Assembly (NCBI GenBank): GCA_029378245.1
Contig: JARKIF010000073.1
Span: 62,001-126,000 of the forward strand
Length of the DNA: 64,000 bases
Direction of reading: 5' to 3'
Origin: Roridomyces roridus
Lineage: Eukaryota > Basidiomycota > Agaricomycetes > Agaricales > Mycenaceae
Positions 3,528-57,870 of the stretch are shown here, in pieces (position 1 is the stretch's first letter; each line of letters starts with the position of its first letter). The notes below the pieces were generated by a model that saw nothing but the letters and a program-made list of their open reading frames with translations, made no database searches and was not told the DNA's origin. The position numbers were made by a program, and so were the translations under genes.

Positions 3528-3529
3528 TC

Positions 3530-10017: not shown

Positions 10018-10454
10018 CTAGAAGCGTCTAACGCGGAAACACTCGCATCCAACGAGGAAAGTGTTCACGACGTCTGGAATACGGGTACCACGGTCATCCG
10101 TGCTATGCTTGCGGTTGAAGGCGATTTGAGCAACCTTAATCTCGACGGAGGCGAGCAGCGTAGCAACGCCTTCGGAACCGGCCACCAGCGTGAGCGTGGG
10201 TTCCTCAAGGAAAGGAATCTAAGGGGGTGACATGAATAAACTCGAAGTCGAGGGCCGAGGAATAGCCTATAACTCACCCAGAAGCGGGCGGTCCGAGCCA
10301 TGAGTCTGTTCACTTCCTTCGGTACGATCTCTTCAGCACGCAAGTCGAGGAAGTCGGAAGACGCGGAAAGCAGGTGAACCCAGTCACTAACGAGGTGCTG
10401 GGGCGGTTCGAAGTCGGGAATGGGAGTTATGCGGACGGTGCGTGCGACGAACAT
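10018..10454 (-). CDS. Antisense cargo gene E of element 1, 125 aa, unknown function
   Basis: Two exons (10454-10278, 10218-10018) joined by a 59-nt GT-AG intron with GTGAGT donor; the joint is in frame and the stop is TAG. A TATATAAG lies about 45 bases upstream of the ATG. The protein is mostly helical in appearance, with no motif I recognise. Gene D next door is a paralog: both break after a Trp (FW / SW), both second exons begin with xPFL, and both continue into a helix of the form IK(V/I)A(Q/R)IA. It converges on pol with 133 bp between stops. It lies on the minus strand of the retrotransposon and is probably transcribed from its own promoter. An untranslated or regulatory antisense role cannot be excluded. 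Confidence 0.72.
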
Positions 10455-10493
10455 GGTGTATAACGGGTGAGATGGGAACAGACCCGTCCCCGG

Positions 10494-10502
10494 CTTATAT
10501 AC
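10494..10502 (-). promoter_or_regulatory. TATA box of gene E
   Basis: TATATAAG on the minus strand, about 40-45 bases before the ATG at 10454. Confidence 0.6.
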
Positions 10503-10661
10503 ACTTGAGGTCAGCACCCGGAAACGCGACGCCCGGAGACGGATTGAAAGGAGCATGACAATGCGGAAGGAACGATCTCGCTAGGAAAAATAGTGGGACG
10601 GCCCTAATTCCGGATAATCTTTGAATCTTGCGCTTATAACTACTCTAATACACAGATAGTA

Positions 10662-11158
10662 TTACGGGGAAGAAGCGGGGTTGAAAGGGTTACGAGGGTT
10701 CGTAACTAGAGAGGGACTAATAAACGACCGGTGAAGCCAAGAAGCGAGCCAGAGACTTACACAAGTAGGCGTGGCGGGCGCGACGGTAGTCCTCACAGAG
10801 GTCGAGGAAAGCCTCGAGCTCGGTAGGAAGCTGACCTCCCGGCCAGGAGTCGCCGAAGTCGTGCGCGATAGCAATACGGGCGATCTTGATAGCCATGGCC
10901 GACACCATCAGACTAACGTCCTGGTCGAGGATAAGGCGCGAGCCTGTCAAATCGGAAAGGAAAGGAGTCTGGGAATAATTTAGCAGACGGCAATAAGAGC
11001 TCGGAATAACGCACCCAAGAGTCCGTAGCATGATCCCGGGCTGCTGAGTTATTGAGAGGGCCGAATAAATGGATAAGGCGTTGCTGCATGGACACAGCGC
11101 GCTGCCAAGGAAGAATATCGTTGGGTCGGGCGACGTAGGCAGTGTGAGGGTATGGCAT
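10662..11158 (-). CDS. Antisense cargo gene D of element 1, 131 aa, unknown function
   Basis: Three exons: 11158-11015, 10968-10761, 10705-10662. Introns are GTGCGT...CAG and GTAAGT...TAG, and all phases agree. ATG 11158 (MPYPHTAY) is chosen because it follows a TTTTAAAAAG TATA-like box by about 30 bases. The second exon is paralogous to gene E (TPFL..., IKIARIAI), with an acidic helix (ELEAFLDLCEDYRRA) and a short Pro/Asn tail. No known domain is recognised. Tandem paralogs with conserved intron position argue that these are real genes kept by selection inside the element, not chance frames. Confidence 0.72.
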
Positions 11159-11637: not shown

Positions 11638-13122
11638 TTAGTTGCGAGAGTTGCGGGAACGAGTTTGCATAGCCTGCGACTTGGCCGAATCATGGGCTCC
11701 GGAAACCTGAATCCCACCACGCATGAACGTGGTGCGACGAGGAATCTGGCCTCCCACGAGTGGGGCAGCGCTACCCGAGGGTTCCGACCTGGGAATAACG
11801 TTAGCAAAACGAGTCTTAGGAAAGGAATGGAGGTATACCTACTGGAAAGTGAAATCCACGGGAACGAGCTGGCGATCGTTCATAGTGCGACGAACAGCCT
11901 CGTACTCGATAAAGACCGCATCGTACTGGCGGACTTCCATGGCGATACGGGTGGCGAGCTCGGCGAGGCGAGTACGGCATGCGCAGTCAGCGCGGAGGAT
12001 GCCGTCGTTGGACGCGAGTATGCCGCGATGCTGAGAGGGAATGCGGTTGGCACTCTCGAGGATGCGCTGGACCTCTTCGTAAGAGAGGGCTAGAACGGTT
12101 ATAAGCGAAACGACGCCGTGGAATAAGGAGTACACGAACGGGAGGGACCGTTATGGGCGTTAGAGGCTGGAGTCGGGGGTTTCGAGGGCGCCTTGTTGTT
12201 AGCTCTGAAATTCGCGGGTTGCGTGGGAGTACTGGAACGTTTCTTGAAGTGGAGTTGATCCTGCTCTGAGTAAACAACGAAGGATAATAGACAAGATGGA
12301 TGCTACTCACGGCTTTCTTGCGGGAAGGCTGGGAGTCGCCCTCACCCTCGGAATCGGAAACGATGGCGGTCGCGGTAGGGGTTGCATGAGGCTCGATAGC
12401 AGGGACCTGCTTCTCCTTGCCTTTCTGAGGATAGTTATAAGAAACAATCAGAAAATAGGGGAGAAGTAGGACGCACGCTAGCCACGGCAGGCTTGTCAAC
12501 ATCCATCACCGAGTCGTCCTTGAGCTCGTCTTCTCCAAGGTCAATGGAGCTGACAGAGTCGACGCTAGGAGAACGCGCGCGACGCTGGACAGACCCGTAA
12601 GCAGAATGTGACCGGAATAACCTAAGGGCGTACCTTCGAGGACGACTTGGATGCCGCAGGCTTGGCGAACGGGTTCTTGAGGAACGCCTCGATGGCAGGA
12701 CGACCTGCGCCTCCAGCGATCTTCTGACGAGCAAGGCGGAAGACCTCAAAACGGTCAAGGAATTGACTGACGGCAACTGGTGCCTCAGGTTCCTTGTTGC
12801 CGTCTTGGGCGAACTTCTCTGCACACTGCCGCATCTTGTTGACGACATTGGAGAGAAGTCCGTTCACGCCATCGTGACAGGCGAAGTCGAAGAGGACGGA
12901 GTCGGCAAGGATTGGCTCCTGCGGGTTTATTAGACACAGGACACGGAAACAAAGGAAGCAACGTACCAAGCACTCGGCAGTACGAGTCATGGCCTTGAGG
13001 AAGGCCTTGGAGCTGGTGTTTTTGGCACCGAGGAGATGCTCAGCTTCGTCACGAGCTTCTTCCCACTCCTCCCGAACACTAGCGGGAGCAACGAAGGAGG
13101 CGGCGTCGGATGAGGGACTCAT
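11638..13122 (-). CDS. Antisense cargo gene C of element 1, intact seven-exon gene, 393 aa
   Basis: Seven exons (13122-12967, 12918-12634, 12584-12477, 12424-12311, 12260-12140, 12089-11843, 11788-11638), six short GT-AG introns of 46-54 nt, all phases consistent, ending in TAA. The N-terminal 150 residues look helical (EEARDEAEHLL, DRFEVFRLARQKIAGG). The middle is a low-complexity Ser/Pro/Lys linker with acidic runs, suggesting a nuclear protein. A second helical block follows (LSYEEVQRILESANRI ... RADCACRTRLAELATRIAMEV), then a basic tail. No catalytic motif is seen. An in-frame ATG at 13215 is possible, but it lies right next to the TATAAAG at 13217-13225, so 13122 is preferred. This unbroken model is the strongest evidence that the antisense cargo is coding. 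Confidence 0.78.
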
Positions 13123-13215
13123 AGTCGAAGGATGGTAGAGACGGAGAACAAATGCAAAGGTAGCAGGGTAGAGGTCGCGGAGTAATTCGTAGGGAGAGTA
13201 AATGGAGGCGTCCAT

Positions 13216-14598: not shown

Positions 14599-16673
14599 CT
14601 ACACCGAAGCACCAGAAGGAGTGGGGGCGGGAACACCCTCCTCCTCCATGTCAATGTCACCCTCGTGAACCACGACAGGCTCGTCCTCGGACTCCTCAGG
14701 CTCATCAGCGTCGGCAACCACGCCCTCGTTGTACTCCTCGATGAGCGCGTTGATGGCGTCGAACATGGGACGCTTCCCATGAGGCGTGGTGGGGTACGAG
14801 CTCCAGAGGGACTCGAGGCCCTCAGTGCCGAAAGTGTCGTTGGCAGTCTTGAAGCGGACGAACATGGCGCCAAGGTCTTCGATGAGGAAGCCGCGGCACA
14901 AGTCGAAATTGTCCCGAGCGGACTGGACAGCTTCGACCTGGCGACGGATGTGGCTCATGTCGAAGGCGTGAGCTGGATTTTTAGTCAGTAGAGCAGGAGA
15001 CGAAGAAAAGGAAATATGTACTGGTGCCGTGGAGAAACTCCCAGGAGGCGAGAGCAGTGTCGACGAGCGCGAGTACGTTCTGCGAGTCGCCGTAGTGGTC
15101 GCAGTAGGCGTCGCGTTTTTTTGACGACGCACTCCTGGCAGGCGATGCCGAGCGGGTGAGCAATGCACTTCTTCCGCAACAGGAAGCAGAGGAGGCACGA
15201 CTTGTGGGGCTGTAAGGAGAGTTAGATGAAGAAGGAAGAAAAGGGCACGGGCACTCGCCTTTACAGCGTCGCCGACGCTGATGTCCGTCACCTCTTGAGA
15301 CGGGAGAGGCTCGAACTGAGGACCGAGGTGACGGGTCTGGCTGGTATCGCGTGAGTGGGGCTCGTTGCCTTGATAGTTCCGCGGGCGGATGATACGAGTC
15401 TGGGCGACGTTGGACACGGACACCGTGACGACGCGATTGAGGCCTGGAATAGGAATAGACACTGCACAAAGGAGTCGGCGCGCAGAAATGTGGTGAAGCC
15501 AGAGACTCATACCATGGTGCTTTTTGCGGTCGCTTAAGATATCCTTGAGGCCTTCGAGGACGTCGGCGGTGACGGTTGCGTTGCGAGACTCCTCCTCCTG
15601 AGCAAGGGTGCGTTAGCAACAGAAGGGTGGAAAGGAAGACGAGCGGTTTACCTCCTTCTTCCCTTTTTCCTTCTTCACGGTCGTGGGTTTGGAAGACGAC
15701 GCGACGGGAGCGGACGACGAGGTCTTCGCGCGAGAAGTAGTGGAAGAACGAAGAACGCGGCCAGCCTACGAGTGAGTAAGGGCAGAATATATACGCATGC
15801 GTATTGTTACGCACCTTGGCTCCCACCGAAGCGTCATCCGCGACGGTGTCCATCTCGTCGTCCTCGTCAACCTCGGGCTCCGGCTTGGGTGTGTGACTGA
15901 CTTTCGCCTTCTTGGAAGCGGGGATCTCGACAACGGGCCGCGAACTGGAAGCCATTATCAGCAAAGCTGGGCTAAGGGAATGAAGTAACGAGACGTACGG
16001 GGAAGTCTTGGATGGAGTAGGAAGAGGACCGGCGGCGCGCTTTTTGGACTTGAAAGTTGTGGCGAAGGTGCTGGCCAAAGCCAGTGTCACGGCAGACACA
16101 GAGGTAGTGACCTTGGGAAAGGTAGCCGTCTTGGCAATGAACGAGTTCTGAAAAAGGTGTCAGAAAGCTCTTGTACGAACGAGAGGAGCCTGGCGTACCG
16201 TTTTACGAGGAAGGGGAATCGCGGTCCAATCTTCGTCCCTGTCGGAAGCAGCGGCGACGAGCTTGCGGATGCCACAAAGGAACGCGGTGACGTTCTCGGG
16301 TAGCATCTCCCCGTGCTTCAGAAGAGCACAAGCGACGCGCTGAGGAAGATGTGAGACGAAGTTAGGAAGCGAGAAAAAGGAGAGGGCGTACCATATGAGC
16401 CAGCCCCTTTCTCAGCATCTTCTCCGCGTGAGGCTGCTCGCAAGCGACGCCAGGGTTGGTCGCAGCAATCACGTATTTGAAGAAAGAAGACATGGCCGGG
16501 TCGAGGACGACTTTGAAAAACGGGGAAACCGAGACCTTGGTGATGGCAGAAACGAGGGGCGCTGGGAAAGAGAAAAAGTTGTTCCGTTCGTAGATGGGTG
16601 GAGGAGAAGGAGAGCGTGCAGGGGAGTTGGGACGTTCGTCCTCGCTGTCGGTGGGCGCCTCGACGAAGTTCAT
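14599..16673 (-). pseudogene. Antisense zinc-cluster gene A of element 1, one-base frameshift
   Basis: Eight exons can be joined: 16673-16392, 16339-16199, 16147-15815, 15765-15652, 15597-15513, 15443-15265, 15209-15022, 14972-14599 (about 558 aa). All splice phases agree except inside the seventh exon, where a run of seven A (plus-strand T at 15116-15122) needs to be six. The break falls in a cysteine cluster CLLC...C...C..C...C spaced CX2CX6CX8CX2CX8C, the spacing of fungal Zn2Cys6 DNA-binding domains. Ahead of it lie a Lys/Ser/Pro-rich linker and acidic runs; after it a helical domain and an acidic tail. A TATAAG lies about 40 bases upstream of the ATG. Gene A' of element 2 has the same layout and is intact. 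The extra base could be real decay or a homopolymer sequencing error. Confidence 0.75.
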
Positions 16674-18592: not shown

Positions 18593-18596
18593 TCGC

Positions 18597-27048: not shown

Positions 27049-27134
27049 ACTTGGTAGCACTCGGAGTGCGTCCGCGAACTATGACTCGGCTCTTGGTATT
27101 CAGCGGAAAACCTGGTTCGACTCCAGGGCCAAGC
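27049..27134 (+). repeat. tRNA-like repeat, copy 2 (well preserved)
   Basis: 86 nt. The acceptor is ACTTGGT against GCCAAGC (one mismatch). The D arm is GCAC-TCGGA-GTGC. TCCGC pairs with GCGGA around a 27-nt loop. The T arm is CCTGG-TTCGACT-CCAGG with a perfect B box (GGTTCGACTCC). There is no 7-nt anticodon loop and no U33. The 110 bases after it resemble the flank of the copy at 57871 on the other strand, so gene, spacer and tRNA-like unit were duplicated together. Confidence 0.7.
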
Positions 27135-27283
27135 AATGCCAATGTTCCGTACGCGGTCGTTTTTGTTTCTTTGCTCCACATATCGTCCATCATACAGAGG
27201 GCGTAGATTATTTCTCTGGTACAAGAATTTACATATGGATACATTCACGTCTCAACGCAAGTCACCGCTGGATACACGCCCAC

Positions 27284-28217: not shown

Positions 28218-29421
28218 GTATTGTGGGGAAGCCTGGTAGCTCGAGCAAGAAGAGGATTTATAGGAGTCGAACGATGACGCCCATGAGATCACTGTGGAGA
28301 AGGAGCCTATCGGTGGTGATCCGAGCCTGTCGGGGACATCGGCCGAAACGCACAGAGTGAAAATTTGACTCGTAGCTTGCGAATCGTCCACGAGCATGAA
28401 CGATCGACGTGACAGTCGGATGCAGGAAACTGCAATTATTGATCAAGTACTCATAGAACTGAGAAACCAAGATCAGGGCCAGTCCGGGGAGCCAAAGTCG
28501 ATCCCCCACACTGACGTCTTACCTTGCCTGTCCTGGCAAGGCATCCACATCCAGCTCCGCCACTTGCCGCGATAGGATGAACGCTGGTAGTTATCGCGTC
28601 CGGAAAGTTTCCTTTGATAAAAGCATGGACTGGAAAATGAATGAGAGCGGGAATCTCTGGGGATTGTGCCGATATTTGAATAGGAAGCTTGCGTCCTAGG
28701 GGCAGACATGTGCTGTGCAGCAATACAAGGGTTCGGATAGAGCGCCAGAAAATTAAGAGTCAGACGAATTGAAGATGAAGATATCTTCCTTGAATCTTGC
28801 TGCGGTGATCCTTGACTTACCAAAGAGAACTCCCGTATGGCACATATAGTGTACAATAAATAAAAAGTGACACAACCCAGTGAAAAACACCAAAAACGAC
28901 ACAACTTGAGGGACTTTCGGCAAAAAACGACACAACCTGCTATCAATTGAAATTAAAACACGCACATCGAAAATCTAACCCAAAAAAACAACACACCTCG
29001 GTTGTGGTGACATAAAATCACAAGACATAAATCAGAGCCCTACAAAAAAAAACACACACCACCCTGGTTCGCATTTTTCAACCCCACCAGAAAAGTACAT
29101 GTCTTCCGTAGCATGAACCAAAGGAAAGCGGCATCACACCGGGTGATAATGCCAAGAGATGCGATCTCGGGCGCATCAGCTTCATCAAAATACCTGCTGA
29201 TGTGCCAAAAATATCTTTCCCCTGAACCATCATCATGATCATGAGCAATGGCTATGATATCCACAACTTCTTCATGGAGGCCACCGCATCACTCAGGAGA
29301 CCCAATTTGTGGTTGATTCCCTTCCCAATGCTGGACCAGCTTCCGTGGAATGCTATCTGCACCAGCTCACTGCAATTCGAACCATTCTCTCAAATCTTGA
29401 TGATCCCCATACCACTTCCGG
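28218..29421. other. Intergenic DNA; ends in a sequence split by element 2
   Basis: 28218-28850 shows no recognised gene. 28850-29060 is A-rich with loose GACACAAC and ACACAC repeats. 29040-29421 reads on the minus strand as a possible coding remnant (YFDEADAPEIASLGIITRCD) that runs into the left target duplication CCGG and would continue at 45548 beyond element 2. Confidence 0.35.
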
Positions 29422-30975
29422 TGATACGACTGCGTATTTCGCACGCGTGAAATCTGGCTAATTAGCTGTTTTGGTGCGCACACCAATGCCTCTGTCAGGT
29501 GATATACAATAAGGGATAGGACCGAGCTCCGTGTCGCTATTCGTGTATTAATGAGACAAGTACAAGTCGTCAGTACACTACGCTTGGCTATTCGTTCAAG
29601 TGGTCGGTTGTAGTGACTCCAATAGGCGGTTCGCGGGGACTACTACTTGTGGAGATACCATACCCAAGGAGATATACCAAGCCCAGGTGTATTCAGAAAT
29701 GAGCTAGACTAGCTATAGAGCAAAGACGAAGGTTGCGCGGACGCGCAGTACTATCATGACAAGGTTCGCGGAGTACCTCGCGGACCGGTATAAGTCTATA
29801 TATATGTATACAAACAGAGTGGCTCGCGTAGGCGAGTTGGAGGAAATACTACCATTCGTTCCGGTATTGCAGAGACACCCAGAAAAGAGATGACAAGTGG
29901 GCGAGTCGAACTCGCGCAGGCACACTAGTATGATCGAGAACTGATCCGAGTACGATCATGATCATGAAAAGCGGCGGAGTCGCGGCAGACGATCAGAGCG
30001 ATGATCGCGTCTGACAGAATATGCCAGGAGTAAGCTCTGGATGGCGAAGATGGCGGACCGAGGTTATTTATGGACCTGGGTCGAGGGCTGTAGTCATAAT
30101 GGGAGCTGGCTCAGCAAGAGAGTGTAATGAAACGACGGAATCAAATTACCAGGCCAATCGGCTCGAATGCCAAGGCGGCATGACCACCGATCAGACGGGC
30201 CAAGCAGCAACATAAGCAACAGGACCACGCGAAGCGGTTCGAGGGGATGTAATATAGGTGACAGGGCACCTAGGGTTATAGGGAAAGTACGGAAATAGGG
30301 ATGGCAGGCGCGTAATAGTAGTTATATCATCAGACCAGTAGGGAGTAGTATATAAGGCCCGTAGATCCCGCCCTTGCAGCATTGCATTGTACGCCTTCTT
30401 GCCTAGACATTGGGTCGAAGCTTGATCTGTGGTTATAGTGCAGTCTTGTGACTTCCGCGGAGATCTCTTAGCTTAGACGCAATATCAAAGGCACCCGAGC
30501 TCTGGTTCAACTTGGGTCAGCTATAGTAACATACTTAAGGGGTAGTGGGTTGCCCTCTGTGCTATAGTTCCTCTTCGTGTTGTATCAAAGTTGTATTGGT
30601 GTTTGGATATTGTGTGTTTCGGTCAATAAAATATAAAACCTTTTAACATCGTAACCTCGTGTTCGTTGTGAGCAGTCTACAAACCAGTCAAGAGATTCCT
30701 CTTAGTTCAAAAGACATTGAACTTGGTGTGAAACCTCGAGAGCCAACCTACAAGCTTCCGAGAACCAAACCGCGGAGTATCAGTCTTATCTGTATACTTC
30801 AGACGACCCCGAACTCAACCGTTAGGTGTCAGCGTGCTAGTCAAGGAGTTGTGTGTGTGTTGTGTGTGTTTTGTGGTTAGTGTGTTGTGGAGTTGTATCG
30901 CTTCGCGGTCTACTTCTAGGACATTACCTACTCGAGCTATCTACTATACACTAGTGCGCGTGACGCTGCGTATCA
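29422..30975 (+). repeat. 5' LTR of element 2
   Basis: 1554 bp. TATATAAGG at about 30350 is the likely promoter. The short inverted ends TGATACG...CGTATCA are perfect. Confidence 0.93.
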
Positions 30976-30995: not shown

Positions 30996-31489
30996 GTCAA
31001 TTTTGATATTTCGCATCAACGAAGCTTAACAAAGTCGAATCTTGAGATTCCAACAAGTCTACTTTTTAGATCCGAGAAGAAAACCGAAGCCGGTTTAACA
31101 AAGCAAATCATTTCGAGCATACCTTAGGCAAACTGTCTTTCGGAGTACCCTCTCAGAAACAGTCCGCCGCGCAGAAAAGCCTTGTACCCGAGGCATCTGC
31201 AACCCAGTCCCAGAACAAGATCACTAGGACTACCAAAAACTCTCAAGCAGCAGCCGCAGGCTCAGCTAGAGGAACCCCTTCGCAGCGAAACGCTACACCC
31301 GTGGTCAGAGGAAGAGCAGCAGCTTCAACCCGAGCCCAAGAACGAGTATCAGCCAACGCCGCGGACCAACAAAAGAAAGTCGCTCAAAGAACGAGAAGTC
31401 TTTCAAACAGTGCAATCGAGCTTGTCGCGAATTCGAACCCGCAGCTTCAAACTCAAACTCCGTTTAATCCAGTAAACAGACAAACAACC

Positions 31490-33013
31490 ATGTCGATGGA
31501 TAAAACAAAATTTCCGTCGCCTTTTGGTGGCAGAGCATTGCATTTCAAGGCAGATGAACCCCATATGTTGGGGTGGTATTTAGACAATGTCGAGGAGCTT
31601 TGCACGGCGTACCATGCAAAGACAGATGATGAAAAGAAATGGGTGGCGATCCGATATGCAGCCCCAGAACTTCAACGAGAATGGGTCAACTTGGAAAGAT
31701 ACAAGGATGGCACCTACGAAGAGTTCGTGAAGGAGTTGTACATGAATTATCCCGAAGCCAAGAAGGCTGAGAAGGGATCCGTCATGCTACTAGACAAAGT
31801 AGTAAGGAAGCAAGCCGCGGATAAACTCCACTTGGGAGAAGTGACAGAGTATATGTCGTTCTTCAGGAGTTTCCGTGGGCAAGCGACCAAACTAGGGAAT
31901 GTAGTATCCAATCGCGAGTTGGTGTCCAAAATTCTACCGTGTCTGAGTGCAGACTTCGAGCAAGCTCTGAAGGCCAGACTAAGGAACACGCCCATGGACC
32001 AACTACCCAGTATCAAAGCGGCTCTGGAAGGGCATGCGATTTTGGTGGAACGAGCCAAGGTGCAAGGAACTCCGCCACCGTTGCCTCTAGAGTTGGACAG
32101 ACCCGCGGAGGACAGATACCTCTGGACGGATGTACTCAAAATTGGTCAGGACTTGACTGAGGAAGAGTCGACCACGTTCTATGGCATCAGCAGTGGCTTT
32201 AGACCGTCGCGACAGGACAAAGAAAAGGACAAACGCACCCAGAACCAATTCCTAGGGGGACTCTATGACCCCGCGGAAGAAGGAGCAGGGCCAGCGACTC
32301 AGGGCGCAGATGGAAGTCTACGCACCGAGATGTTTGAAAAATTCCACGAGTTGGAAAAAGTCATGGCAGAAGCCGCCGACAAACAGAATGTCGAAGAGCA
32401 TAAGCGCCATGTGGAGACCGCGGAGCTACTCAAGGGAATTGCCTCGGCCTTACAGCAGAGCACCCCGCAGCAGCCCCCACCCAGGCCAAACTGGGGACCG
32501 CCTCAGCAACAACAGAGGCAGTCACAAGGCAATTATGGTGGACAATCTTACGGGGCCGCCAGAGACGATAGGTGCTTCTATTGTCTTGGACCACATTACC
32601 AAGAAGACTGCGAGGTTAAACGCAAGCATTTGCTATTGGGAATGATTAGAGTTCAGGATAGGAAGATATTCCAGTACAACGGTCATAGTATTCCGTCAGA
32701 ACCAAGGAACAAATCCAAAGCCCAGAAGGTCGAGGAGTTCTACATGAGTCGGAATGGGGGGAAGATGCCCCAGGAACCTCTGAAGCAAGCATACATGACA
32801 GAAGAGGAGCCGGACTATGATTCGCGTGGGGATGAAATCCTTACCTTACAAGTCGAAGCTCTGCAGTTGCGTCAGATGATCCAGTTGTACGAGATTCGAC
32901 ATGGATCGTTGAAGGATACCGGAGCTGGCGAGGAAGAGCCAGTACCAGAAGCGTCGCAGAACTTGCAAACCAGGGCCGCAGCTGGGCAAGCTAATGGTCA
33001 GGGTTTTCGGTAA
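31490..33013 (+). CDS. gag: Gag of element 2 (capsid, nucleocapsid)
   Basis: ATG 31490 (MSMDKTKFPSPF) is the first ATG before the capsid. The frame is open from about 31070, so a longer basic Ser/Gln-rich N-terminus is possible without an ATG. Residues 1-200 form a helical capsid-like domain (WVAIRYAAPELQREW, YEEFVKELYMNYP). A Pro/Gln-rich linker follows, then one zinc knuckle C-F-Y-C-LGP-H-YQED-C near 32573, spaced CX2CX3HX4C, one residue shorter than the usual CX4H. A coiled segment ends the protein. At 33001-33007 the heptamer G GGT TTT lies in frame one codon before the stop TAA, a textbook -1 slippery site leading into the protease frame. Confidence 0.88.
   Translation: MSMDKTKFPSPFGGRALHFKADEPHMLGWYLDNVEELCTAYHAKTDDEKKWVAIRYAAPELQREWVNLERYKDGTYEEFVKELYMNYPEAKKAEKGSVMLLDKVVRKQAADKLHLGEVTEYMSFFRSFRGQATKLGNVVSNRELVSKILPCLSADFEQALKARLRNTPMDQLPSIKAALEGHAILVERAKVQGTPPPLPLELDRPAEDRYLWTDVLKIGQDLTEEESTTFYGISSGFRPSRQDKEKDKRTQNQFLGGLYDPAEEGAGPATQGADGSLRTEMFEKFHELEKVMAEAADKQNVEEHKRHVETAELLKGIASALQQSTPQQPPPRPNWGPPQQQQRQSQGNYGGQSYGAARDDRCFYCLGPHYQEDCEVKRKHLLLGMIRVQDRKIFQYNGHSIPSEPRNKSKAQKVEEFYMSRNGGKMPQEPLKQAYMTEEEPDYDSRGDEILTLQVEALQLRQMIQLYEIRHGSLKDTGAGEEEPVPEASQNLQTRAAAGQANGQGFR
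33001..33007 (+). promoter_or_regulatory. -1 frameshift site, gag to protease
   Basis: GGGTTTT in the phase G GGT TTT, followed by CGG TAA in the gag frame. The protease frame is open through and beyond it. Confidence 0.65.
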
Positions 33014-34350: not shown

Positions 34351-37300
34351 GTTTGTTCGAGGAACTCGAGGATGGGGGAGAACTCATGACTTCTTGGGAT
34401 TACGATGAGCGTGGACAACTGATATGTACGGGGTATGCAAAACCCAAGGACAAAGTTGCTACTGAGGAGGATATCACACAAGCGTATCTATGTGCCTCGA
34501 GACAGGTAGTGGACGATGACGAAGCAGCAGCTGAGCTGCTGGATCAGTACCTAGGTCTTAGTAAGACTGAGGAAGGGATGGAAGTGTTTACCTTCAAAGA
34601 AGCAGGCGAGACTGGCGTAGCCCAGAAACGCAACCGTGAGAAGCGTCGGATCAGATGCGGGAAGAATACCCGAAAGATGACGTTGATGCAACTCCGCGGG
34701 GAAACTGAGCGATCAGCGCCAAAGTCAATTAGGAAGATGTTTCGCAAGAAAGTGCCTACCATACCCGAGATATTGAGGGATTGTACAGAGGAGGTAGCTA
34801 ACTTCCTCGGGAAAAAGTACAAGAAAGTCGCGGACAAGGTCACGCCGATACTGGCCACCTTGCCCGAGAAATATCGGATCGAGAGGAAGATCACGGGTGA
34901 CCCCTTGCAGGACATGCCAACTCTAAACCCGAATCCACCTGAATTCGAGGCAGTGGGAAGTTATACTGAGGAGCGCCGTGATATGGTTGACGCAATACAT
35001 GATGATGGACTCTTAGAACCCGAGGAGCGCAAGTTGATGCACCATTTTATGATGCAACATGAGAAGAGCTTCGCCTGGGAAGAAAATGAGAGAGGGAGAT
35101 TGAAGCACGAGTTCTTTCCTCCCGTGGAAATTCCGGTTGCAGAACATACCCCGTGGGTGTGTTCGCAGATTCCGATTCCGCCTGGTCATTATGAAGAATT
35201 TTGCAAGAACATCAAGGCGAAGATTGATGCAGGTGTGTACGAGCCTTCGAACTCCTCGTATCGCACTCCGATCTTTGCGGTAATCAAGAAAGATGGCAAG
35301 TCACTACGGATTGTGCACTCCTTGGAGAGGTTGAACGAAGTTACCATCCAGCATTCCGGAGTCACACCAGGTACAGAGGCCATCGCAGAGCAATTTGCAG
35401 GACGCGCTTGTGGAGGAGCATTAGATATGTTCGTAGGATATGACAATCGAGACCTCGCAGAAGGTTCGCGGGACTATACAACGTTTCAGACTCCCTTTGG
35501 GGCCATGAGATTAGTGAAGCTACCCATGGGTTGGACCAATTCGGTTCCCATTTTCCATGATGATGTTACCTATATTCTCAGAGATGAAGTCCCCCATGTC
35601 ACCATTCCCTACATTGATGATGTACCTATCCGCGGACCTAAGACTCGATACGAGACTAAGGACGGAGACTATGAGCGCATAGCCGAAAACAAAGGCATCA
35701 GACGATTCGTGTGGGAACACTTTCAAAATTTGAACAGGGTTGTTGCTAGAATGATCTATGCTGGAGGAACGTTTTCAGGAAAGAAAGCAGTACTTTGCAA
35801 AGGCACATTTGAAGTTGTTGGTCATATGTGTACTTATGAAGGCAGGATCGCGGATCCTAAACGGATTGATGTCATCATGAAATGGGGAAAATTGGCGAAC
35901 TTTACACAAGTCAAGTCATACCTCGGAACAGTTGGCGTCCTCCGGTCCTACATAAAAGACTTTGCGAAAATCCTAGGTCCAATAAATGACCTAACGAAGA
36001 AAGAAATACCCTTTGAATGGGGAGAAGCCCATGATAAGGCACAAGCAGATGTTCGAGAAGCGCTCAAAGATTGTAAGGCACTCAAGCCTCTGGATTACGA
36101 GCTGGATTCGGACATAGTATTGCAAGTGGACACGTCTTGGAGGGCGGTAGGGTTGATTATCTATCAGGTAGACCCCGAGGACCCGACCAAGAGGTGGTAC
36201 GCGAGGTTCGCGTCAATTACACTAACGGAGAGGGAAGCCAATTACTCACAGCCAAAGCGCGAATTGTTCGGGCTCATGAGGGCCCTGGATGCAATGTCGT
36301 ATTGGTTGTTGGGATGTAGGCGGCTGGTAGTTGAGACAGATGCCTTGTACATCCGTGGAATGTTGAAGAATCCTGGAATGGGACCAAATGCGACTATTAA
36401 CCGGTGGATTGAGAAGATTCTCATGTTCCATTTTAAGTTGAAGCACGTACCTGGTGCGACTTTCGCGCCGGATGGTCTGTCAAGAAGGGATCCGCATCCC
36501 GGGGATGAAGTCTTTAAGAATCCAGAGGATGGTTTCGATGACAATGATCCGCCTGAGGACCATGAGGAGATTGATCCAAATGGGCCGCAACCGCTGGAAT
36601 TCGAGGAATTTAAAGACAAGATAGATACAAGGGGCGGCTATTTACAGACGACTGAGTGCGCGGGGAGCCCCGCGGACTTCGAGACTGACTGGGCTTGGGC
36701 CAGATCTTTGGAGGAGCAAGTCAGGACTTCTGTAAAGAGAGCGTATGAGAAAGAAGGGGAACCTGTACCACAGTTTGTGCAGGCCGCGGAACCGCTAATT
36801 CCAGACTTGGAGTTGAAATGGGATCCGAACAAGCGAGAGCCGTATGACGAGAGTGGGCGCTCTAACTTGGCAAAGATGCAGGATAACAGACTGGCCGGTT
36901 TAAGGACTTGGCTGGAGAATCCACTGAAAAGGCCGAAGAGTGTTCAGAAGAAAGATTACAGACACTTCGTTCGGTGGGCCTCACATTTCTTTTTGAAAGA
37001 GGGGAGGATGTATCGAAAAGGAATCGGTACAGCACACCAATTGGTGGTAGATAAAGAGCACAGGATGTACATGATGCATGCAGCACACGATAGTCTAGGA
37101 CATCGAGGATTTTGGGCAACCAAAGAATTGATCAGCCTACGATTCTGGTGGCCGGAGTTGGATAGGGATGTCAGTTGGTATATTAAAACGTGCCATAGCT
37201 GTCAAGTACGGCAAACGACACTCTTGAAAATCCCGCCTGTCATCACGCACACGCCGAGTCTGTTTCAGCAAGTTCACATTGACGTGATGAAAATGGGAGC

Positions 37301-38438
37301 AACTTCGAATGGATATTCAATGGTTGTAGACGCCCGCGATTCACTATCGAGTTGGTTGGAAGCACGACCAATTAAGAACGAGAATGCTGAGACGCTTGGG
37401 ATGTTCATTCTGGAGGATATTATCTGCAGATGGGGCTGTCCGCGGGTGATCGTAACAGATAATGCGGGCGCGTTCAGAAAGGCTTTAGCGTGGTTGGAAA
37501 AGAAATATGGCATTATTGGAATCAATATATCACCTTACAACTCGCAAGGTAACGGCAAGGTCGAGCAGGGGCACTTCCCGCTTCGACAGTCGCTAACCAA
37601 AGCTACGGGTGGAAACCCGGGGAAGTGGTTCTACTTCTTCCATCAGGTGTTGTGGGCAGACAGGATTACCATTAGGAAAGGCAAGGGGTGTTCTCCCTTC
37701 TTCCTAGTCACCGGAGCGCATCCGATCCTACCTTTGGATTTGGAGGAAGCGACCTGGTTGGTAGAACTGCCTGGCAGGGTTTTGACCAACTCAGAATTAG
37801 TGGGATTCCGGGCACAGGCCTTGGCCAAGCATCATCAGCATGTAGAAGCCATGAGGTCGCGCGTCACCCATGAGAAAAGGATGGCATTACGGAAGTACGA
37901 GAGGTACTTCGAGAACACCATCCAACAGTACGATTTCCAACCAGGAGAGTTGGTGCTGGTCAGACATACCAGTGTAGAAAAGAGTTTGAATTCAAAAATG
38001 GAGAACCGATACCTAGGACCTATGATAGTGGTTCGACGAACCAAAGGAGGAGCGTACTTGGTCGCGGAAATGAACGGTGCAATGTTCCAAGACAAAATTG
38101 GAGCGTTTAGGGTTATCCCTTATTTTGCACGACAATCTATTCCGTTACCAGAGAACATCCATAGGGTCATCGACATCTCGAAGGAAACTCTGGAGAAGCT
38201 AGCAAACGACGAGGAATCTGTGGAGCCGAAAACAAAGAAATCTAAGGTGTACCAAGGAAAGGACATTCAATTCAAGGATGTTCGCCTGCGGGTAACAGCA
38301 GAAGACTTTGAAGAGCCAGAGACGGAAGACGAAGAACAGTCCGAGGACTCCTCCGCGGAAGATTCGAACGATGATGCAGCAGCCAGAATTCGCAAGTCCA
38401 AACGTTTATCGAAATTGGTAGACAAACTACGGACATGA
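34341..38438 (+). CDS. pol: Pol of element 2: reverse transcriptase, RNase H, integrase
   Basis: About 1365 aa and intact. RT has YIDD (IPYIDDVPIRGP, near base 35615) and FQTPFGAMRLVKLPMG. RNase H has VDTS, KRELFG and VETDA. Integrase has an HHCC site ending CHSC (near 37195), the D,D,E residues in HIDVMK, VTDNAG and NGKVEQGH, and the GPY/F-like YLGPMIVVRR module. The tail is acidic with a basic end (RKSKRLSKL). It is collinear with element 1 pol, so the two elements are one clade. The stop lies 24 bp from the stop of the convergent antisense gene B'. Confidence 0.93.
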   Translation, partial: KFLSLFEELEDGGELMTSWDYDERGQLICTGYAKPKDKVATEEDITQAYLCASRQVVDDDEAAAELLDQYLGLSKTEEGMEVFTFKEAGETGVAQKRNREKRRIRCGKNTRKMTLMQLRGETERSAPKSIRKMFRKKVPTIPEILRDCTEEVANFLGKKYKKVADKVTPILATLPEKYRIERKITGDPLQDMPTLNPNPPEFEAVGSYTEERRDMVDAIHDDGLLEPEERKLMHHFMMQHEKSFAWEENERGRLKHEFFPPVEIPVAEHTPWVCSQIPIPPGHYEEFCKNIKAKIDAGVYEPSNSSYRTPIFAVIKKDGKSLRIVHSLERLNEVTIQHSGVTPGTEAIAEQFAGRACGGALDMFVGYDNRDLAEGSRDYTTFQTPFGAMRLVKLPMGWTNSVPIFHDDVTYILRDEVPHVTIPYIDDVPIRGPKTRYETKDGDYERIAENKGIRRFVWEHFQNLNRVVARMIYAGGTFSGKKAVLCKGTFEVVGHMCTYEGRIADPKRIDVIMKWGKLANFTQVKSYLGTVGVLRSYIKDFAKILGPINDLTKKEIPFEWGEAHDKAQADVREALKDCKALKPLDYELDSDIVLQVDTSWRAVGLIIYQVDPEDPTKRWYARFASITLTEREANYSQPKRELFGLMRALDAMSYWLLGCRRLVVETDALYIRGMLKNPGMGPNATINRWIEKILMFHFKLKHVPGATFAPDGLSRRDPHPGDEVFKNPEDGFDDNDPPEDHEEIDPNGPQPLEFEEFKDKIDTRGGYLQTTECAGSPADFETDWAWARSLEEQVRTSVKRAYEKEGEPVPQFVQAAEPLIPDLELKWDPNKREPYDESGRSNLAKMQDNRLAGLRTWLENPLKRPKSVQKKDYRHFVRWASHFFLKEGRMYRKGIGTAHQLVVDKEHRMYMMHAAHDSLGHRGFWATKELISLRFWWPELDRDVSWYIKTCHSCQVRQTTLLKIPPVITHTPSLFQQVHIDVMKMGATSNGYSMVVDARDSLSSWLEARPIKNENAETLGMFILEDIICRWGCPRVIVTDNAGAFRKALAWLEKKYGIIGINISPYNSQGNGKVEQGHFPLRQSLTKATGGNPGKWFYFFHQVLWADRITIRKGKGCSPFFLVTGAHPILPLDLEEATWLVELPGRVLTNSELVGFRAQALAKHHQHVEAMRSRVTHEKRMALRKYERYFENTIQQYDFQPGELVLVRHTSVEKSLNSKMENRYLGPMIVVRRTKGGAYLVAEMNGAMFQDKIGAFRVIPYFARQSIPLPENIHRVIDISKETLEKLANDEESVEPKTKKSKVYQGKDIQFKDVRLRVTAEDFEEPETEDEEQSEDSSAEDSNDDAAARIRKSKRLSKLVDKLRT

Positions 38439-38462: not shown

Positions 38463-38934
38463 CTAAGGCGTACGAACAGGGCGAGCAGTCGCGGTGAAAG
38501 TCAAGGTACCGGACTGGCGAATAGCAAAGAGGGCGTTGAGGCTGTCAGGGTGGCCGCGCTCAATAAGAACCTGGAGGGCGAGGGCGCATTCCTTCATGGC
38601 AGCAGCAGGAGGCTCGAAACCGCACTCCTTCTTGGCTTCGAGGGCGTCATCGCGGACGTGGAAGAGCGCTTCCTTGGCAGGGGTCATCTCGACCAAGTGA
38701 AGGGCTTCTTTGAACGCGTAGAGGTGACCCTGGGAATGAGTTAGCAAAGGTGTTGAGCAATAGAAAATATAGCAGACGCACTCCGAGATTCACTGCCTGA
38801 GCAAGTAAGGTCTTGCGGGTAGGGACAAGAACGGTCATCGTTTTGTCGATGGAGCGATAGGCGGCAACGGCTTCAACGAGTTGGGCGCCGGCCTTCATGG
38901 CGGCAGAGTCGGGAGAAAGAGGCTCAGGTGCCAT
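38463..38934 (-). CDS. Antisense cargo gene B' of element 2, 139 aa
   Basis: Two exons (38934-38782 and 38729-38463), intron GTGCGT...CCCAG of 52 nt, in frame, stop TAG. ATATATAAA lies about 50 bases upstream. The protein is helical (KAGAQLVEAVAAYRSIDKTM, EALFHVRDDALEAKKECGF) with no recognised domain. In size, exon number and position next to pol it mirrors genes D and E of element 1, though sequence likeness is weak by eye. The 24-bp gap to pol means the two transcripts must overlap at their 3' ends. Confidence 0.72.
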
Positions 38935-39829: not shown

Positions 39830-41159
39830 CTAATCCGTCGGTTCAGCAGCCGTGAGATGAGGAGCGGGCGAGGAGTTCGGCGAGCCCATCAGCTCGTCCT
39901 CCGGCGCGTGATCCGTCATCGGCGTATCGGTGGCGTTGAGGGTCGCGATGGCAGGCGTCGACGGAGAAGTCAGACGAGACTCGTCCAAAGCTAGACTCGA
40001 ATATCAGCCAAACACGGAAAAGAATAAGGAAGAAAGTTAGACGTACCACCACCCAGAGTACTAAAGCGCGAGATCGGCGTTGGAGGGTGAGATGGATGCG
40101 CCGAGGTCGAAGCCACAGGGGCCATTGGAGGAGCCGTCTCCACGGGTGCCGGGCGCGAGAAATCGGGCGCAGAGTTGAGGCGCAATAGTCCGCTGGTCGA
40201 CGCTTGGGCAGGGACGTGAGGCAAAGCGATCAACTACAACGCATAGAATCAGGGAAGAAAGAATAAAGGAACGTTACGACGTACGCGGGTAGGCTCCATG
40301 TGTGCAAAAGCGAACTGGTGACGTTCCTCGAGGTCCTCCACGAAAGCAGTCGCCGAATCCATGTCGATGTTGTGGAAACGGAAGAGTGAGAGGAGTACGT
40401 CGAGGTCGTCACGACCGTTCTGGAACTTCTTGAAGAGCTCGGCCTCGGGAAGGGACTTGCGGAGCGAGAAGATGTACAACGCCAACTCCTGCAACTGCAT
40501 CCGATAGAAGGAGCGCTGGTTGAGGAAGACGGCGAGCGACGACTCGAGGTTATGGCGTGCGAAAGCCAAACCTTCCAAGCGATGGATCAAGCCTATGAAA
40601 AGAAGTTAGGGATAAAAAAAAAAAAAAAAGTGCAGAAAGGGAAAAGACGCACTGAAGTTGGACATCTCGATGGCAGGCCGAAGGGACTCGAACATCGCGC
40701 TCTGTTCGTATTCGTCAATAGAGTTCGAGCAAGTCCCGTGGCCGACGCCACAGCCAAGGCACGCGTGTTTCGGTCCCAAAGACCCACAGACGTGGTTGCG
40801 CTTGGCGCAGTTCGAGCACGGAGCAGGCGCCTAGCACAAAACAGGTTGAGCTAGGGCCGCACCAGAAGAGAAAGACAGAGAAACGACGACTCACTTTGAA
40901 GTAGTTCTTGCCCGGGATGCGCGAGGCAATGATCAGATCCGGATCGAGGGTCGGATCGTCGGGCGAATCCGTGTCTTTGAACAACGATGGGGCGGGGGCA
41001 GGAATCGAATCCTGGTCGATTGAATACTGAGGATTGCTGAAATAATCGACGACATCCATGGTCTCGGGGATGGGCGTGGCTTTGACGATGAAGTCGTGCG
41101 GGATGACGCGAGGAATAACGCCGGGCATTGAACGCTCTAAGTTTCAAACGTCAGAACGT

Positions 41160-41198
<39 letters not shown>

Positions 41199-42687
41199 AG
41201 AAAAAGAACATACTGGGGCCCGAAGTTTTCGAATGCATCGAGTTGGCGTACCACTCGTGGGTTTGAAGACCGTCCGGAGGGTTGGTCGGGACCTCGGGCT
41301 TGGGGTCGTCAAGGATGTAGCTTTTGTAGCCACCGTCGGGGTTGGCAGCGTAAGGATGCAGAAACGGACGTTTCTGGTCAGGGGCCTCGGACGGTTCGCT
41401 CTTCTGTTTGCGTTTGCGCGAGGTTTTCGGAACCTCGACAGGCGGAAGGTCGGGAGGTGGTGACTCGGGGGGACGAGCAGCCACGGTCGACGGGCGCATC
41501 GAACGACGGTTGGAGGGTGCCGGCGACTCGACACGAGTTTTGGGCGGAAGACCTTTGATGATCAAGGCCTCGTCCTAAAAAACAGTTAGCATAAAAAGAA
41601 GAGATGAGAAGATCGAGGGACGCACCTCAGAAGGGACCTCCTCAGACTCGACTCCACCCAAAGAAGGACCCGGCGTAACGTCGCTCGAACGACGACGACT
41701 CTTGGCCTTGGAGTTCTTGTTGCCCTTCTTCTTGGACGGAGCTTGGAAGAATGGGGCGGCTGCCGACTTGGGGTGGGTAAAGAGGTTGATGGAAGGAACG
41801 GCCTTGTTTTTGGACTTTGTGGACGAATAGCCGAAAGGCGGAGGCGAAGGCTCCAGTTGGTCCTCGGGCATCTGAAAAGAATTCAAAAAAAACAGCGCAA
41901 AGAAAGCGGAGAGGATGGACGTACGCGGTCGTCCTCGTTAAAATACAAGTTAGGGGTCGCGAGCCGCGGAGCGGGAGCCTTGGCAGAAGACTTCGCTGGC
42001 GTAGGAGTGAGGGCCTTGGCGGAAGATTTCGCTGTCGTGGGAGCGAGGGCCTTGGCGGCAGACTTCGATGGCGGAGGGACGGGAGCGACATCGGAGCCCT
42101 CATCGTCGTCATCGTCCATGGCCATAGCGAAGCGATCGTCCAGCGACAACGGCACAGGAGGTGCAGGAGGCGCAGGTGGTGCCGGAGGTGCCGGAATGTC
42201 GAACGAAGGAGGAAGGACGGGCTGTAAAAGGCGTCAATAAAACAAGCGAGGAGACGAAGCGTATTGAGACGCACGCGAGAAGGATCATCGGAAGGAATCA
42301 TGGGTCGATAGGCAGCTGTGCCTTTCAGGTTCTTGTTGCCAAGACCGGAGACGTCGTTGAGACGGGTAAGCACATCAAAGCACTGGGCAAAGAACGCCTC
42401 GATCTCGGGGATGACTTCCCCTTGCGCGTGATCGCGATAGCGTTCCTAAGAAGGAGTTAGCCGTTTCAAAAAGAGAAAAGAACGAGACGTACCAAGAACT
42501 GAAAATAGTGTTGGGTCTCGCGGACGAGAACAGACAAAGTAACCGGTTCCAACGGACGAGTGGTGTCGAAACGATCGGTGAAGAAGACGAAAGCACGGTC
42601 ACCACCGTCGCGGATGGGTTTCCACGGGTCCGAGAGGAAGCGAGCCTTGGCCGAGGCAGAGTCGAGAGGTCGAGGCCTCGGAGCCAT
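39830..42687 (-). CDS. Antisense zinc-cluster gene A' of element 2, intact, 781 aa
   Basis: Ten exons: 42687-42493, 42445-42275, 42221-41925, 41871-41626, 41574-41214, 41136-40895, 40830-40653, 40592-40285, 40233-40047, 39990-39830. Nine introns of about 47-77 nt, every phase consistent, stop TAG. Exon 7 encodes CSNCAKRNHVC...CLGC...C with spacing CX2CX6CX8CX2CX6C, the pattern of fungal Zn2Cys6 DNA-binding domains, here in mid-protein, not at the N-terminus. Before it are a helical start, Ala/Pro/Lys-rich linkers and a basic stretch (SRKRKQKSE) fit for a nuclear signal. After it is a helical domain (LALYIFSLRKSLPEAELFKKF) and a Ser/Pro tail. It could regulate the element, bind nucleic acid, or be unrelated cargo; no evidence decides. 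Confidence 0.82.
41161..41196. repeat. Poly-A (36) tract inside an intron of gene A'
   Basis: A run of 36 A on the plus strand, which is poly-T in the 77-nt intron between exons 5 and 6 of the antisense gene. A shorter run (12-13 A) lies in the intron at 40600-40640. Confidence 0.9.
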
Positions 42688-43408
42688 AAGTCGGTACGGA
42701 CTTGGTGGGACCGCCACGTAGTCGAGAATGAGAGGAGGCGTGGTGGAGATACGAGTCGAAGACGAGTAACCAGAAGAGCCCGCCAGGCGAATGCGGGAGG
42801 ACGACAAGCAGAGTAGAGGAAAAGAAAACGAGAAGGGCGAAAGTCTTGATGAGTCGACTCTTAAAAAGGGGCTCATGGAAGGAGATTCCTGGGAAAAGAT
42901 CAGGAATAGACTTGCAATAGAAATGACTCGAGACCAGGACCCTGAGTTGAAAAGAAGCCAAGACAACCGGGCAGCCGGTACGGCGCTAAAATTGAATGGC
43001 TGGGAAAAACAAGTATAGATAGCACGAACCTCGAGGACTATGGTCTCGCTGGTTCGTGGGTGGTCTACCAGCATGATACAAGCACGGAACGAATAAGATA
43101 ATGCAGAAGACGCGTGTCTTCAATAGTTGGAGCGAAAATCGCAAGAGGGGCGCGTGAGACTCCGGTGAAATAAAAAATTAGCGGAAAATCCAGCACAGCC
43201 TTTTCAATTAAGGGTGGATCAAAGATCCGCGGAAGCTACCTCGTGGAGCACGGGAGCTATCGGTGAATGAACGAAGACAATTTGGGCTCAAAATAAAACA
43301 ATTGAAACAGACGTTCGAGGGGGCTATCAGTCCTCGAACCTCTAAATCGATGAATTATGATCGCGCATGTTCACGACCGGGGACGGTCGAGATTTAGTGA
43401 AGGGGAGA

Positions 43409-45543
43409 TGATACGACTGCGTATTTCGCACGCGTGAAATCTGGCTAATTAGCTGTTTTGGTGCGCACACCAATGCCTCTGTCAGGTGATATACAATAAG
43501 GGATAGGACCGAGCTCCGTGTCGCTATTCGTGTATTAATGAGACAAGTACAAGTCGTCAGTACACTATGCTTGGCTATTCGTTCAAGTGGTCGGTTGTAG
43601 TGACTCCAATAGGCGGTTCGCGGGGACTACTACTTGTGGAGATACCATACCCAAGGAGATATACCAAGCCCAGGTGTATTCAGAAATGAGCTAGACTAGC
43701 TATAGAGCAAAGACGAAGGTTGCGCGGACGCGCAGTACTATCATGACAAGGTTCGCGGAGTACCTCGCGGACCGGTATAAGTCTATATATATGTATACAA
43801 ACAGAGTGGCTCGCGTAGGCGAGTTGGAGGAAATACTACCATTCGTTCCGGTATTGCAGAGACACCCAGAAAAGAGATGACAAGTGGGCGAGTCGAACTC
43901 GCGCAGGCACACTAGTATGATCGAGAACTGATCCGAGTACGATCATGATCATGAAAAGCGGCGGAGTCGCGGCAGACGATCAGAGCGATGATCGCGTCTG
44001 ACAGAATATGCCAGGAGTAAGCTCTGGATGGCGAAGATGGCGGACCGAGGTTATTTATGGACCTGGGTCGAGGGCTGTAGTCATAATGGGAGCTGGCTCA
44101 GCAAGAGAGTGTAATGAAACGACGGAATCAAATTACCAGGCCAATCGGCTCGAATGCCAAGGCGGCATGACCACCGATCAGACGGGCCAAGCAGCAACAT
44201 AAGCAACAGGACCACGCGAAGCGGTTCGAGGGGATGTAATATAGGTGACAGGGCACCTAGGGTTATAGGGAAAGTACGGAAATAGGGATGGCAGGCGCGT
44301 AATAGTAGTTATATCATCAGACCAGTAGGGAGTAGTATATAAGGCCCGTAGATCCCGCCCTTGCAGCATTGCATTGTACGCCTTCTTGCCTAGACATTGG
44401 GTCGAAGCTTGATCTGTGGTTATACAGTAGAGTTGCTCATATGGAATATTGTCGGGAGGGGTCTGAAGGCTATTCCATATGACGGTTATTCCACATGGAA
44501 TATATGTATTATTTTTTGAATTATTTAGTTTAATTTTCATAAGGTCAAAAGTAGTCTCGAAATAGGGAACAGCGTCCAGTCCCGTGCCATTCTGATGCTG
44601 AGACTGACCCAAGCACATACCACATTTGCAATACAGCCTTATACGGGCCCACGGTCTTCCCATCAACAGGATCAGTATGTGATGGGGTCGCGGAACTGGG
44701 ATCAAACGAGCTATTAGCGAGAGACAATGGCCACAATGAGCCTCAGGAGTGACAAAGTTGATTGTTATCAGTGAACAATACTGGATTTCAACCTCCGGAT
44801 CACTCAAACACGCTTATTTTGCCATTTTCGGCGACCGCAACGTGGAATAATGGGACCGGCAGCTTATTCCATATTCCAGAAGGCGGTGAGTGGAATATTT
44901 GGCTGCTCTCGACCCGGGAGCACCCCAAATCCTATTCCATACCACGGATATTCCACATGATATTATTCCACAAGACCGACTCTACTGTAGTGCAGTCTTG
45001 TGACTTCCGCGGAGATTTGTTGTATCATTTCTCTTAGCTTAGACGCAATATCAAAGGCACCCGAGCTCTGGTTCAACTTGGGTCAGCTATAGTAACATAC
45101 TTAAGGGGTAGTGGGTTGCCCTCTGTGCTATAGTTCCTCTTCGTGTTGTATCGAAGTTGTATTGGTGTTTGGATATTGTGTGTTTCGGTCAATAAAATAT
45201 AAAACCTTTTAACATCGTAACCTCGTGTTCGTTGTGAGCAGTCTACAAACCAGTCAAGAGATTCCTCTTAGTTCAAAAGACATTGAACTTGGTGTGAAAC
45301 CTCGAGAGTCAACCTACAAGCTTCCGAGAACCAAACCGCGGAGTATCAGTCTTATCTGTATACTTCAGACGACCCCGAACTCAACCGTTAGGTGTCAGCG
45401 TGCTAGTCAAGGAATTGTGTGTGTGTGTTGTGTGTGTTTTGTGGTTAGTGTGTTGTGGAGTTGTATCGCTTCGCGGTCTACTTCTAGGACATTACCTACT
45501 CGAGCTATCTACTATACACTAGTGCGCGTGACGCTGCGTATCA
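43409..45543 (+). repeat. 3' LTR of element 2 with a MITE inside
   Basis: Same as 29422-30975 apart from a handful of substitutions, a 563-bp MITE (44425-44987) and a 14-bp insertion near 45018. The purine tract GTGAAGGGGAGA precedes it; bases 42688-43396 between gene A' and this tract show only its likely 5' leader. Confidence 0.92.
44425..44987. mobile_element. MITE, Tc1/mariner-pogo type, 563 bp
   Basis: The 5' LTR reads GGTTATAGTGCAG. The 3' LTR has an insert after GGTTATA, starting CAGTAGAGTTG and ending CGACTCTACTG, followed by TAGTGCAG. The duplicated TA (44423-44424, 44988-44989) and CAGT ends are typical of Tc1/mariner/pogo elements. Several ATGGAATA/TATTCCAT motifs lie near both ends. 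No transposase is present. Comparison with the empty 5' LTR defines the borders exactly. Confidence 0.9.
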
Positions 45544-57746: not shown

Positions 57747-57870
57747 GTGGGCTGGTTAGCTTGCGTTGAATGTATCCATATGTATTTTTTGGTACCAAAG
57801 AAGCGCCTTCGTGTATCCCGAAAGAGACGCTGTTCTGCAACGACACAAAAAAGGATATTGCCACCATAAC

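Follow-up and report, generated by a model that had tools for sequence, protein, structure and literature searches.

We analysed a window of 64,000 nucleotides of Roridomyces roridus DNA (C473:62001-126000); the genome searched comprised 90.8 Mb in 501 contigs. Element 2 in this window is a Ty3/gypsy LTR element, with an LTR pair and target duplication (4 bp, CCGG) and with protease, RT, RNase H and integrase in gypsy order. An intron-rich gene, here called A', lies between its pol and its 3' LTR on the opposite strand, bearing out an earlier note that had described an intact multi-exon gene carried antisense by a retrotransposon. The features of element 2, in window coordinates, are:

29422..30975 (+): 5' LTR, 1554 bp, TGATACG...CGTATCA
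31301..33013 (+): gag-like ORF, 570 codons
33136..34350 (+): aspartic-protease-like ORF, DUF4100 match (E 4e-11)
34353..38438 (+): pol ORF with RT, RNase H and integrase H2C2 (Ty3/gypsy)
38463..38934 (-): antisense gene candidate B, two exons (38934-38782, 38729-38463), about 139 aa
39830..42687 (-): antisense gene A', ten exons, nine introns, 781 aa
40729..40818 (-): six-cysteine cluster CX2CX6CX8CX2CX6C of A', exon 7, residues 509-538
42688..43408 (-): stretch between the A' ATG and the 3' LTR, 721 bp
43409..45543 (+): 3' LTR, broken by an insert at about 44425-44987

Between the two LTRs of element 2 there is 1 mismatch over 1016 bp, and a 556-bp piece shows 3 mismatches and 2 gaps; this near-identity indicates that the insertion is young. 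The ~560 bp insert in the 3' LTR (44425-44987), missing from the 5' LTR, has inverted ends like TACAGTAGAGT...ACTCTACTGTA and is itself a small terminal-inverted-repeat element. Among the 5' stretches of seven other element copies, five showed no 5' LTR and two a partial one. Pfam matches above cut-off were RT_RNaseH, RT_RNaseH_2 and Integrase_H2C2; the RVT_1 and protease matches fell under their cut-offs, and rve gave no match in this copy. Through the DUF4100 match, the gag-protease region of these elements is linked to this Pfam domain. One knuckle-like motif (CX2CX3HX4C) was seen by eye in the translation of the gag-like ORF, in which a test for the pattern CX2CX4HX4C gave no match.

The space between pol and the 3' LTR measures 4.97 kb and holds two antisense genes, candidate B and A'. 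Candidate B stops 25 bp from the end of pol, with TATATAAA 54 nt upstream of its ATG; its exon 1, the part compared, was found in 5 of 7 other copies, where it has hardly changed.

Elsewhere in the window, an inverted pair (27281-28299 / 60946-62308, about 78% identical and separated by 33-35 kb), together with further pieces at 56974-57959, represents a local dispersed gene or repeat family. A tRNA-Leu (caa) is predicted at 58122-58210 on the minus strand, and this stretch matches 27046-27133 at 78% in reverse.

Structure of gene A'

A' runs from an ATG at 42687 to a TAG finishing at 39830 on the minus strand. All of its introns are GT-AG: 42492-42446, 42274-42222, 41924-41872, 41625-41575 and 41213-41137 (introns 1-5), and 40894-40831, 40652-40593, 40284-40234 and 40046-39991 (introns 6-9), with sizes in that order of 47, 53, 53, 51, 77, 64, 60, 51 and 56 nt. 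Their removal leaves 781 codons with zero internal stops, although six of the nine have lengths that are not multiples of three; the claim that nine introns keep the frame over 781 codons thus held, with exact coordinates. With the seven other introns fixed, four frame-keeping options exist for introns 3 and 6 (778, 781, 784 and 787 aa), and we judged the 781-aa model to have the best splice sites of the four. A deposited protein model, P0001, matched six of the nine junctions exactly.

The N-terminal part of the protein is conserved. A long low-complexity middle follows, in which basic stretches occur (residues 268, 280 and 356), then the cysteine cluster and a last part that looks helical as judged by eye. 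The cluster in exon 7 was found as claimed: CSNCAKRNHVCGSLGPKHACLGCGVGHGTC occupies residues 509-538 and contains six of the seven cysteines in the whole protein. Shuffling the residues of A' reproduced the pattern in 0 of 200,000 shuffles, and the cluster residues were identical in all 13 copies compared. Upstream, the 721-bp stretch is the likely antisense promoter region; a clear TATA-like site was absent 25-110 nt before the ATG (1500 of 2000 shuffles scored as high).

Copies of A', their introns and selection on the protein

A DNA search of the genome gave at least 17 matches to A' at no fewer than 16 loci, window included, and at all 15 other loci the element's LTR adjoined A', at ~0.7 kb from the ATG in full copies. 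One contig carries a pol 99% identical to that of element 2 (C13:1532015-1536097), yet the DNA search found no A' match on it; this element is perhaps truncated or an A'-less variant. We aligned 14 sequences, leaving out the partial copies C90:1-496 and C456, and for dN/dS also omitted C438, so that 13 of the 16 loci were compared.

The frame of A' was open throughout in 6 of the 14 copies (window, C135, C455, C224, C82 and C68), with TAA read at the intron-7 acceptor in C224 and C82. Of the eight copies without a complete open frame, C464a has an open frame with no stop at the aligned position, and the remaining seven show frame breaks or truncation. In two near-identical copies, L018 (C257) and L019 (C464:152759, here C464b), a deletion has removed exon 1 together with the start of intron 1, and other DNA stands in their place; in L020 (C26) exon 7 is split by about 1 kb of other DNA.

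Across copies we counted 39 distinct exon indels, of which 4 were multiples of three (36, 18, 9 and 6 nt) and 35 were not; 23 of these 35 fell in C438, a ragged copy at a contig end, and the other 12 were single bases in C211, C90b, C26 and C467. Outside C438, all four exon indels above one base therefore kept the frame. Introns held 36 indels, 5 of them multiples of three and 31 not. Copies L015 (C211) and L016 (C90, here C90b) had 0 substitutions between them in the compared codons and introns but different single-base indels, which are probably faults of the assembly and not signs of decay; copies in this genome may accordingly have been labelled 'pseudogene' falsely in some cases.

All nine introns were present in 11 of the 14 aligned copies, C257 and C464b kept introns 2-9 and the tail of intron 1, and C438 kept five before its contig ends. 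Intron loss was thus observed at 0 of 120 intron positions, and none of the aligned copies had the clean exon-exon joint expected of a processed copy. Introns are expected to be lost from anything copied through RNA. When an LTR element is copied, it is the sense RNA that is reverse-transcribed, and antisense introns read CT...AC in that RNA and are ignored by the spliceosome; they are therefore not lost, and no special device is needed. A' would be transcribed from its own promoter, or from the 3' LTR, towards pol, and host machinery would splice this antisense transcript; the sense genomic RNA serving as reverse-transcription template would carry the A' introns as their reverse complement, and the need for the A' protein would preserve the splice sites. 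The earlier suggestion that antisense placement explains intron survival fits these data.

Pairwise dN/dS of A' was 0.05-0.43 in all 77 defined pairs (13 copies, 78 pairs, one without differences), and 0.06-0.18 in four key pairs, including the window copy with C224 (0.18, bootstrap 0.12-0.24) and with C464a (0.06, bootstrap 0.03-0.10). Ratios were highest in very close pairs (up to 0.43) and for C257 and C464b, which gave 0.25-0.37 against other clades; the latter values are inflated because exon 1 of these two copies is misaligned in this set. Between the window copy and C224, differences by codon position numbered 39/31/103. Introns of A' diverged at about the rate of synonymous sites (0.191 vs a dS of 0.219 for that pair). 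A six-frame control on the four pairs gave 0.06-0.18 for the gene frame, 0.13-0.27 with 20-21 stops for the mirror frame on the opposite strand, and 0.94-5.22 for the other four. Values for pol, protease and gag were 0.05-0.09 (window vs C224 or C82; pol from five listed pairs), and constraint on A' is therefore weaker but clear. Within A', comparing the window copy with C224 and C68, dN/dS was 0.09-0.10 in the N-terminal part, 0.07-0.09 in the helical part and 0.25-0.26 in the middle, and the 45-codon cluster part had only one change of each kind. These results show that the A' protein is under strong purifying selection, with near-neutral introns; the proposed comparison of related copies could have given ratios near 1, and the ratios lay far below it.

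Selection of this kind bears on whether the antisense RNA alone matters, through dsRNA or silencing control, with the A' frame incidental. Parts of PMC7264820 suggest that antisense transcripts of plant elements feed siRNA pathways; in A', amino acids are selected and third positions and introns are free, and these dN/dS values disfavour such a reading, which we regard as most improbable.

Synonymous divergence was uneven along the gene. Between the window copy and C224 it was dense in the N-terminal part and low in the cluster and helical parts, and between the window copy and C464a the opposite was seen, with a pol dS of 0.033, far below the A' value of 0.154. This unevenness suggests recombination between elements.

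Antisense genes in element 1 and related elements

The window holds a second LTR element, element 1, which also carries antisense genes:

2106-3529 and 17171-18594: LTRs of element 1, 1424 bp, identical, TCGC duplication
10018..11158 (-): antisense candidates G3 (about 11158-10662) and G4 (about 10454-10018), automatic models only
11640..13215 (-): antisense gene G2, multi-exon, hand-read model, about 424 aa
14599..16673 (-): antisense gene A, nine exons
15022..15209 (-): cysteine-cluster exon of gene A, CX2CX6CX8CX2CX8C in unbroken copies

Because automatic gene finding predicted too many introns (10 for A'), the models of A, B and G2 were curated by hand. For gene A, five other loci were fetched, three of which were compared and two of which are partial, with splicing projected from the alignment. 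The frame is open over 554 aa in three other genomic copies, and the window copy is broken in the cluster exon. Against the diverged copy L026, gene A gave dN/dS 0.19-0.20, with intron divergence of 0.137-0.146 and dS of 0.180-0.190; close copies gave 0.18-0.53 on only 7-11 changes, the highest being L024 with the window copy (0.53 on 8 changes). One gene A intron may use a GC donor. The deposited models P0002 or P0003 matched seven of the eight gene A junctions, and P0002 reads the cluster exon outside the cluster frame. Just after gene A, about 515 bp (13906-14421) are missing in L024, L025 and L026 and represent another young insert.

Relatives of G2 were found on C460, C190, C90 and C357, in antisense orientation and 3.0-4.9 kb past pol; outside the gene A family they were antisense in 4 of 4 places where pol was listed, and C451 and C472 had no pol among the matches listed. 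The pol search of the genome gave at least 38 matches (best 34 of 379 candidates scored), many of them 54-60% identical to the pol of element 2. On C2, an antisense three-exon gene lies behind pol and encodes 225 aa with CX2CX4CX8CX2CX7C; the deposited model P0004 contains its whole spliced sequence, with both junctions kept. P0005, a relative of the C2 protein, was placed on C301 and C79, whereas C35, C257, C46 and C122 matched it less well, and the copy on C35 has the cluster CX2CX4CX8CX2CX6C. This type of gene was antisense and downstream of pol in 3 of 3 places with pol listed (C2, C301 and C35).

No significant sequence similarity was found among A, A' and the C2-type protein by BLAST or by hhalign (P 0.13-0.42). 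Homology of these proteins is thus unsupported by either method; spacing and place alone agree.

Before G4, TATATAAG lies at 47 nt; TATA-like sites of other antisense genes were weaker. The summed score of TATA-like sites before seven antisense genes was reached by 3 of 5000 mononucleotide shuffles, for genes picked by eye and with A' adding nothing to the excess; such sites make it plausible that the antisense genes have their own promoters.

Antisense genes thus recur across the lineage, cysteine-cluster genes in diverged elements among them, and probably predate the split of these pols. The earlier note had under-called the extent of the phenomenon, of which gene A and the antisense genes of other pol-related elements are also part.

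These data also bear on whether A' is a captured host gene travelling as passive cargo. Its multi-exon build with ordinary fungal introns does resemble a host gene, but purifying selection between copies, the LTR beside A' at every other locus and the antisense genes of pol-diverged elements all speak against this. Furthermore, genome protein searches with P0001 and gene A returned only loci already known from the DNA searches, and word-based protein searches (shared five-residue words; best 7995 candidates scored in one of them), which may miss distant relatives, found none outside R. roridus. We consider passive cargo very unlikely. Among viral contigs, no relative was found.

Taken together, the frame, the selection, the copies and the sister genes argue for real antisense accessory genes, and we put at about 70% the probability that in A' a Ty3/gypsy LTR retrotransposon lineage of Roridomyces roridus has a genuine accessory gene.

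Cysteine cluster, possible function and known systems

Fungal Zn2Cys6 clusters have the spacing CX2CX6CX5-16CX2CX6-8C, and transcription factors of this class (Zn_clus, PF00172) usually carry the cluster near the N-terminus. The spacing fits A' and A, and does not fit C2, P0005 or the C35 copy, where CX4 stands in place of the CX6 that the pattern needs; in A', unlike typical factors, the cluster starts at residue 509 of 781. Searching A' against Pfam gave no family at E<=1, Zn_clus and PF04195 included, and the Zn_clus profile gave no match for A, P0001, P0004 or P0005 at E<=10. The earlier label 'Zn2Cys6-like' therefore stands for the cysteine spacing and finds no counterpart in Pfam, and classical Zn2Cys6 membership was not accepted for want of a profile match. 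Fold models were of low confidence for both exon 7 of A' (pLDDT 54.9) and P0005 (31.2); among solved structures, the A' cluster region had no match and P0005 two chance-level matches.

The earlier note had also proposed looking for binding sites of the protein in the LTRs. CGG/CCG pairs were not enriched there (4 in each of the two element 2 LTRs vs shuffled means of 4.5 and 4.7), nor was this site type in the stretch before A' (3 vs a shuffled mean of 3.4).

Extra antisense genes are known from other retroelements. As described in parts of PMC7264820 and PMC11963269, the plant aORF-3R genes (maize Grande gene23, rice RIRE2, Silene Retand and bean PvRetro13) are kept in most copies and resemble A' in lying antisense between pol and the 3' LTR and in their proposed nuclear or regulatory role. 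Neither paper uses the word 'intron' in its main text, whereas A' has nine introns; Retand proteins carry TRP28 (PF04195), whereas A' has no match to it; and A' stands further apart in its six-cysteine cluster and fungal host. In a fungus, Boty of Botrytis cinerea has the antisense gene brtn (Zhao et al. 2011, as cited in passages of PMC7264820 and PMC8365987), and thus resembles element 2, compared by description only, as a fungal LTR element with an extra antisense gene.

HTLV-1 to -4 have the spliced antisense genes HBZ/APH, and the relevant sections of PMC10186651 describe HBZ as a nuclear bZIP-type factor and APH-3 and APH-4 as suppressors of 5' LTR-driven transcription. A' likewise has the build of a spliced antisense gene in a retroelement, and its product may be a regulator as theirs is. 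According to the same sections, HBZ is a deltaretrovirus bZIP gene that starts in the 3' LTR, whereas A' has nine introns, a cysteine cluster and 721 bp before the LTR. Antisense extra ORFs of LTR elements and spliced HTLV antisense genes are thus already known from the parts of these sources cited; for fungal LTR elements, our literature search, in which subscription literature was thinly covered, turned up no description of an antisense gene with several introns.

By analogy with these systems, we tentatively rank first, at a little short of even odds, the reading that the A' protein may be a nuclear, cluster-bearing, partly disordered regulator acting in trans on element transcription, followed by a role against silencing and one in handling RNA.

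In plants, the VANC proteins of VANDAL elements are anti-silencing factors, and the A' protein might similarly shield the element from host silencing instead of switching its LTR. Such a role would suit an accessory protein that is under selection and has basic stretches and a cluster, as well as LTRs in which the CGG/CCG sites that a classical Zn2Cys6 factor should bind are not enriched; no known anti-silencing protein was among the Pfam or protein-search matches, however, and we think this role unlikely. Still less probable in our estimate is that the protein handles genomic RNA (export, packaging or a nucleocapsid-like function) through a zinc-knuckle-like cluster. Six cysteines may bind metal and RNA, and a spacing that differs between elements (CX4 or CX6) suits a loose knuckle, but the gag-like ORF has its own knuckle-like motif and the antisense position sets A' apart from the gag-pol RNA.

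Beyond the trans-acting regulator proposed for A' itself, this mushroom Ty3/gypsy lineage might be one of 'complex' retrotransposons, with several host-spliced antisense genes that have promoters of their own and include a cysteine-cluster DNA-binding regulator that diverges fast, and with an antisense layout that lets intron-rich genes last long; we offer this wider picture as a possibility, and a somewhat doubtful one.

For annotators, these elements are a warning that intron-bearing 'hypothetical proteins' can be transposon genes. Genes with nine and eight introns survive in these retroelements, apparently because they lie on the opposite strand, and selection indicates that the antisense proteins matter. 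The part of PMC7264820 that treats antisense and spliced transcripts urges their study, and R. roridus offers a many-copy natural system for asking what antisense retroelement genes do, the question raised by the plant aORFs.
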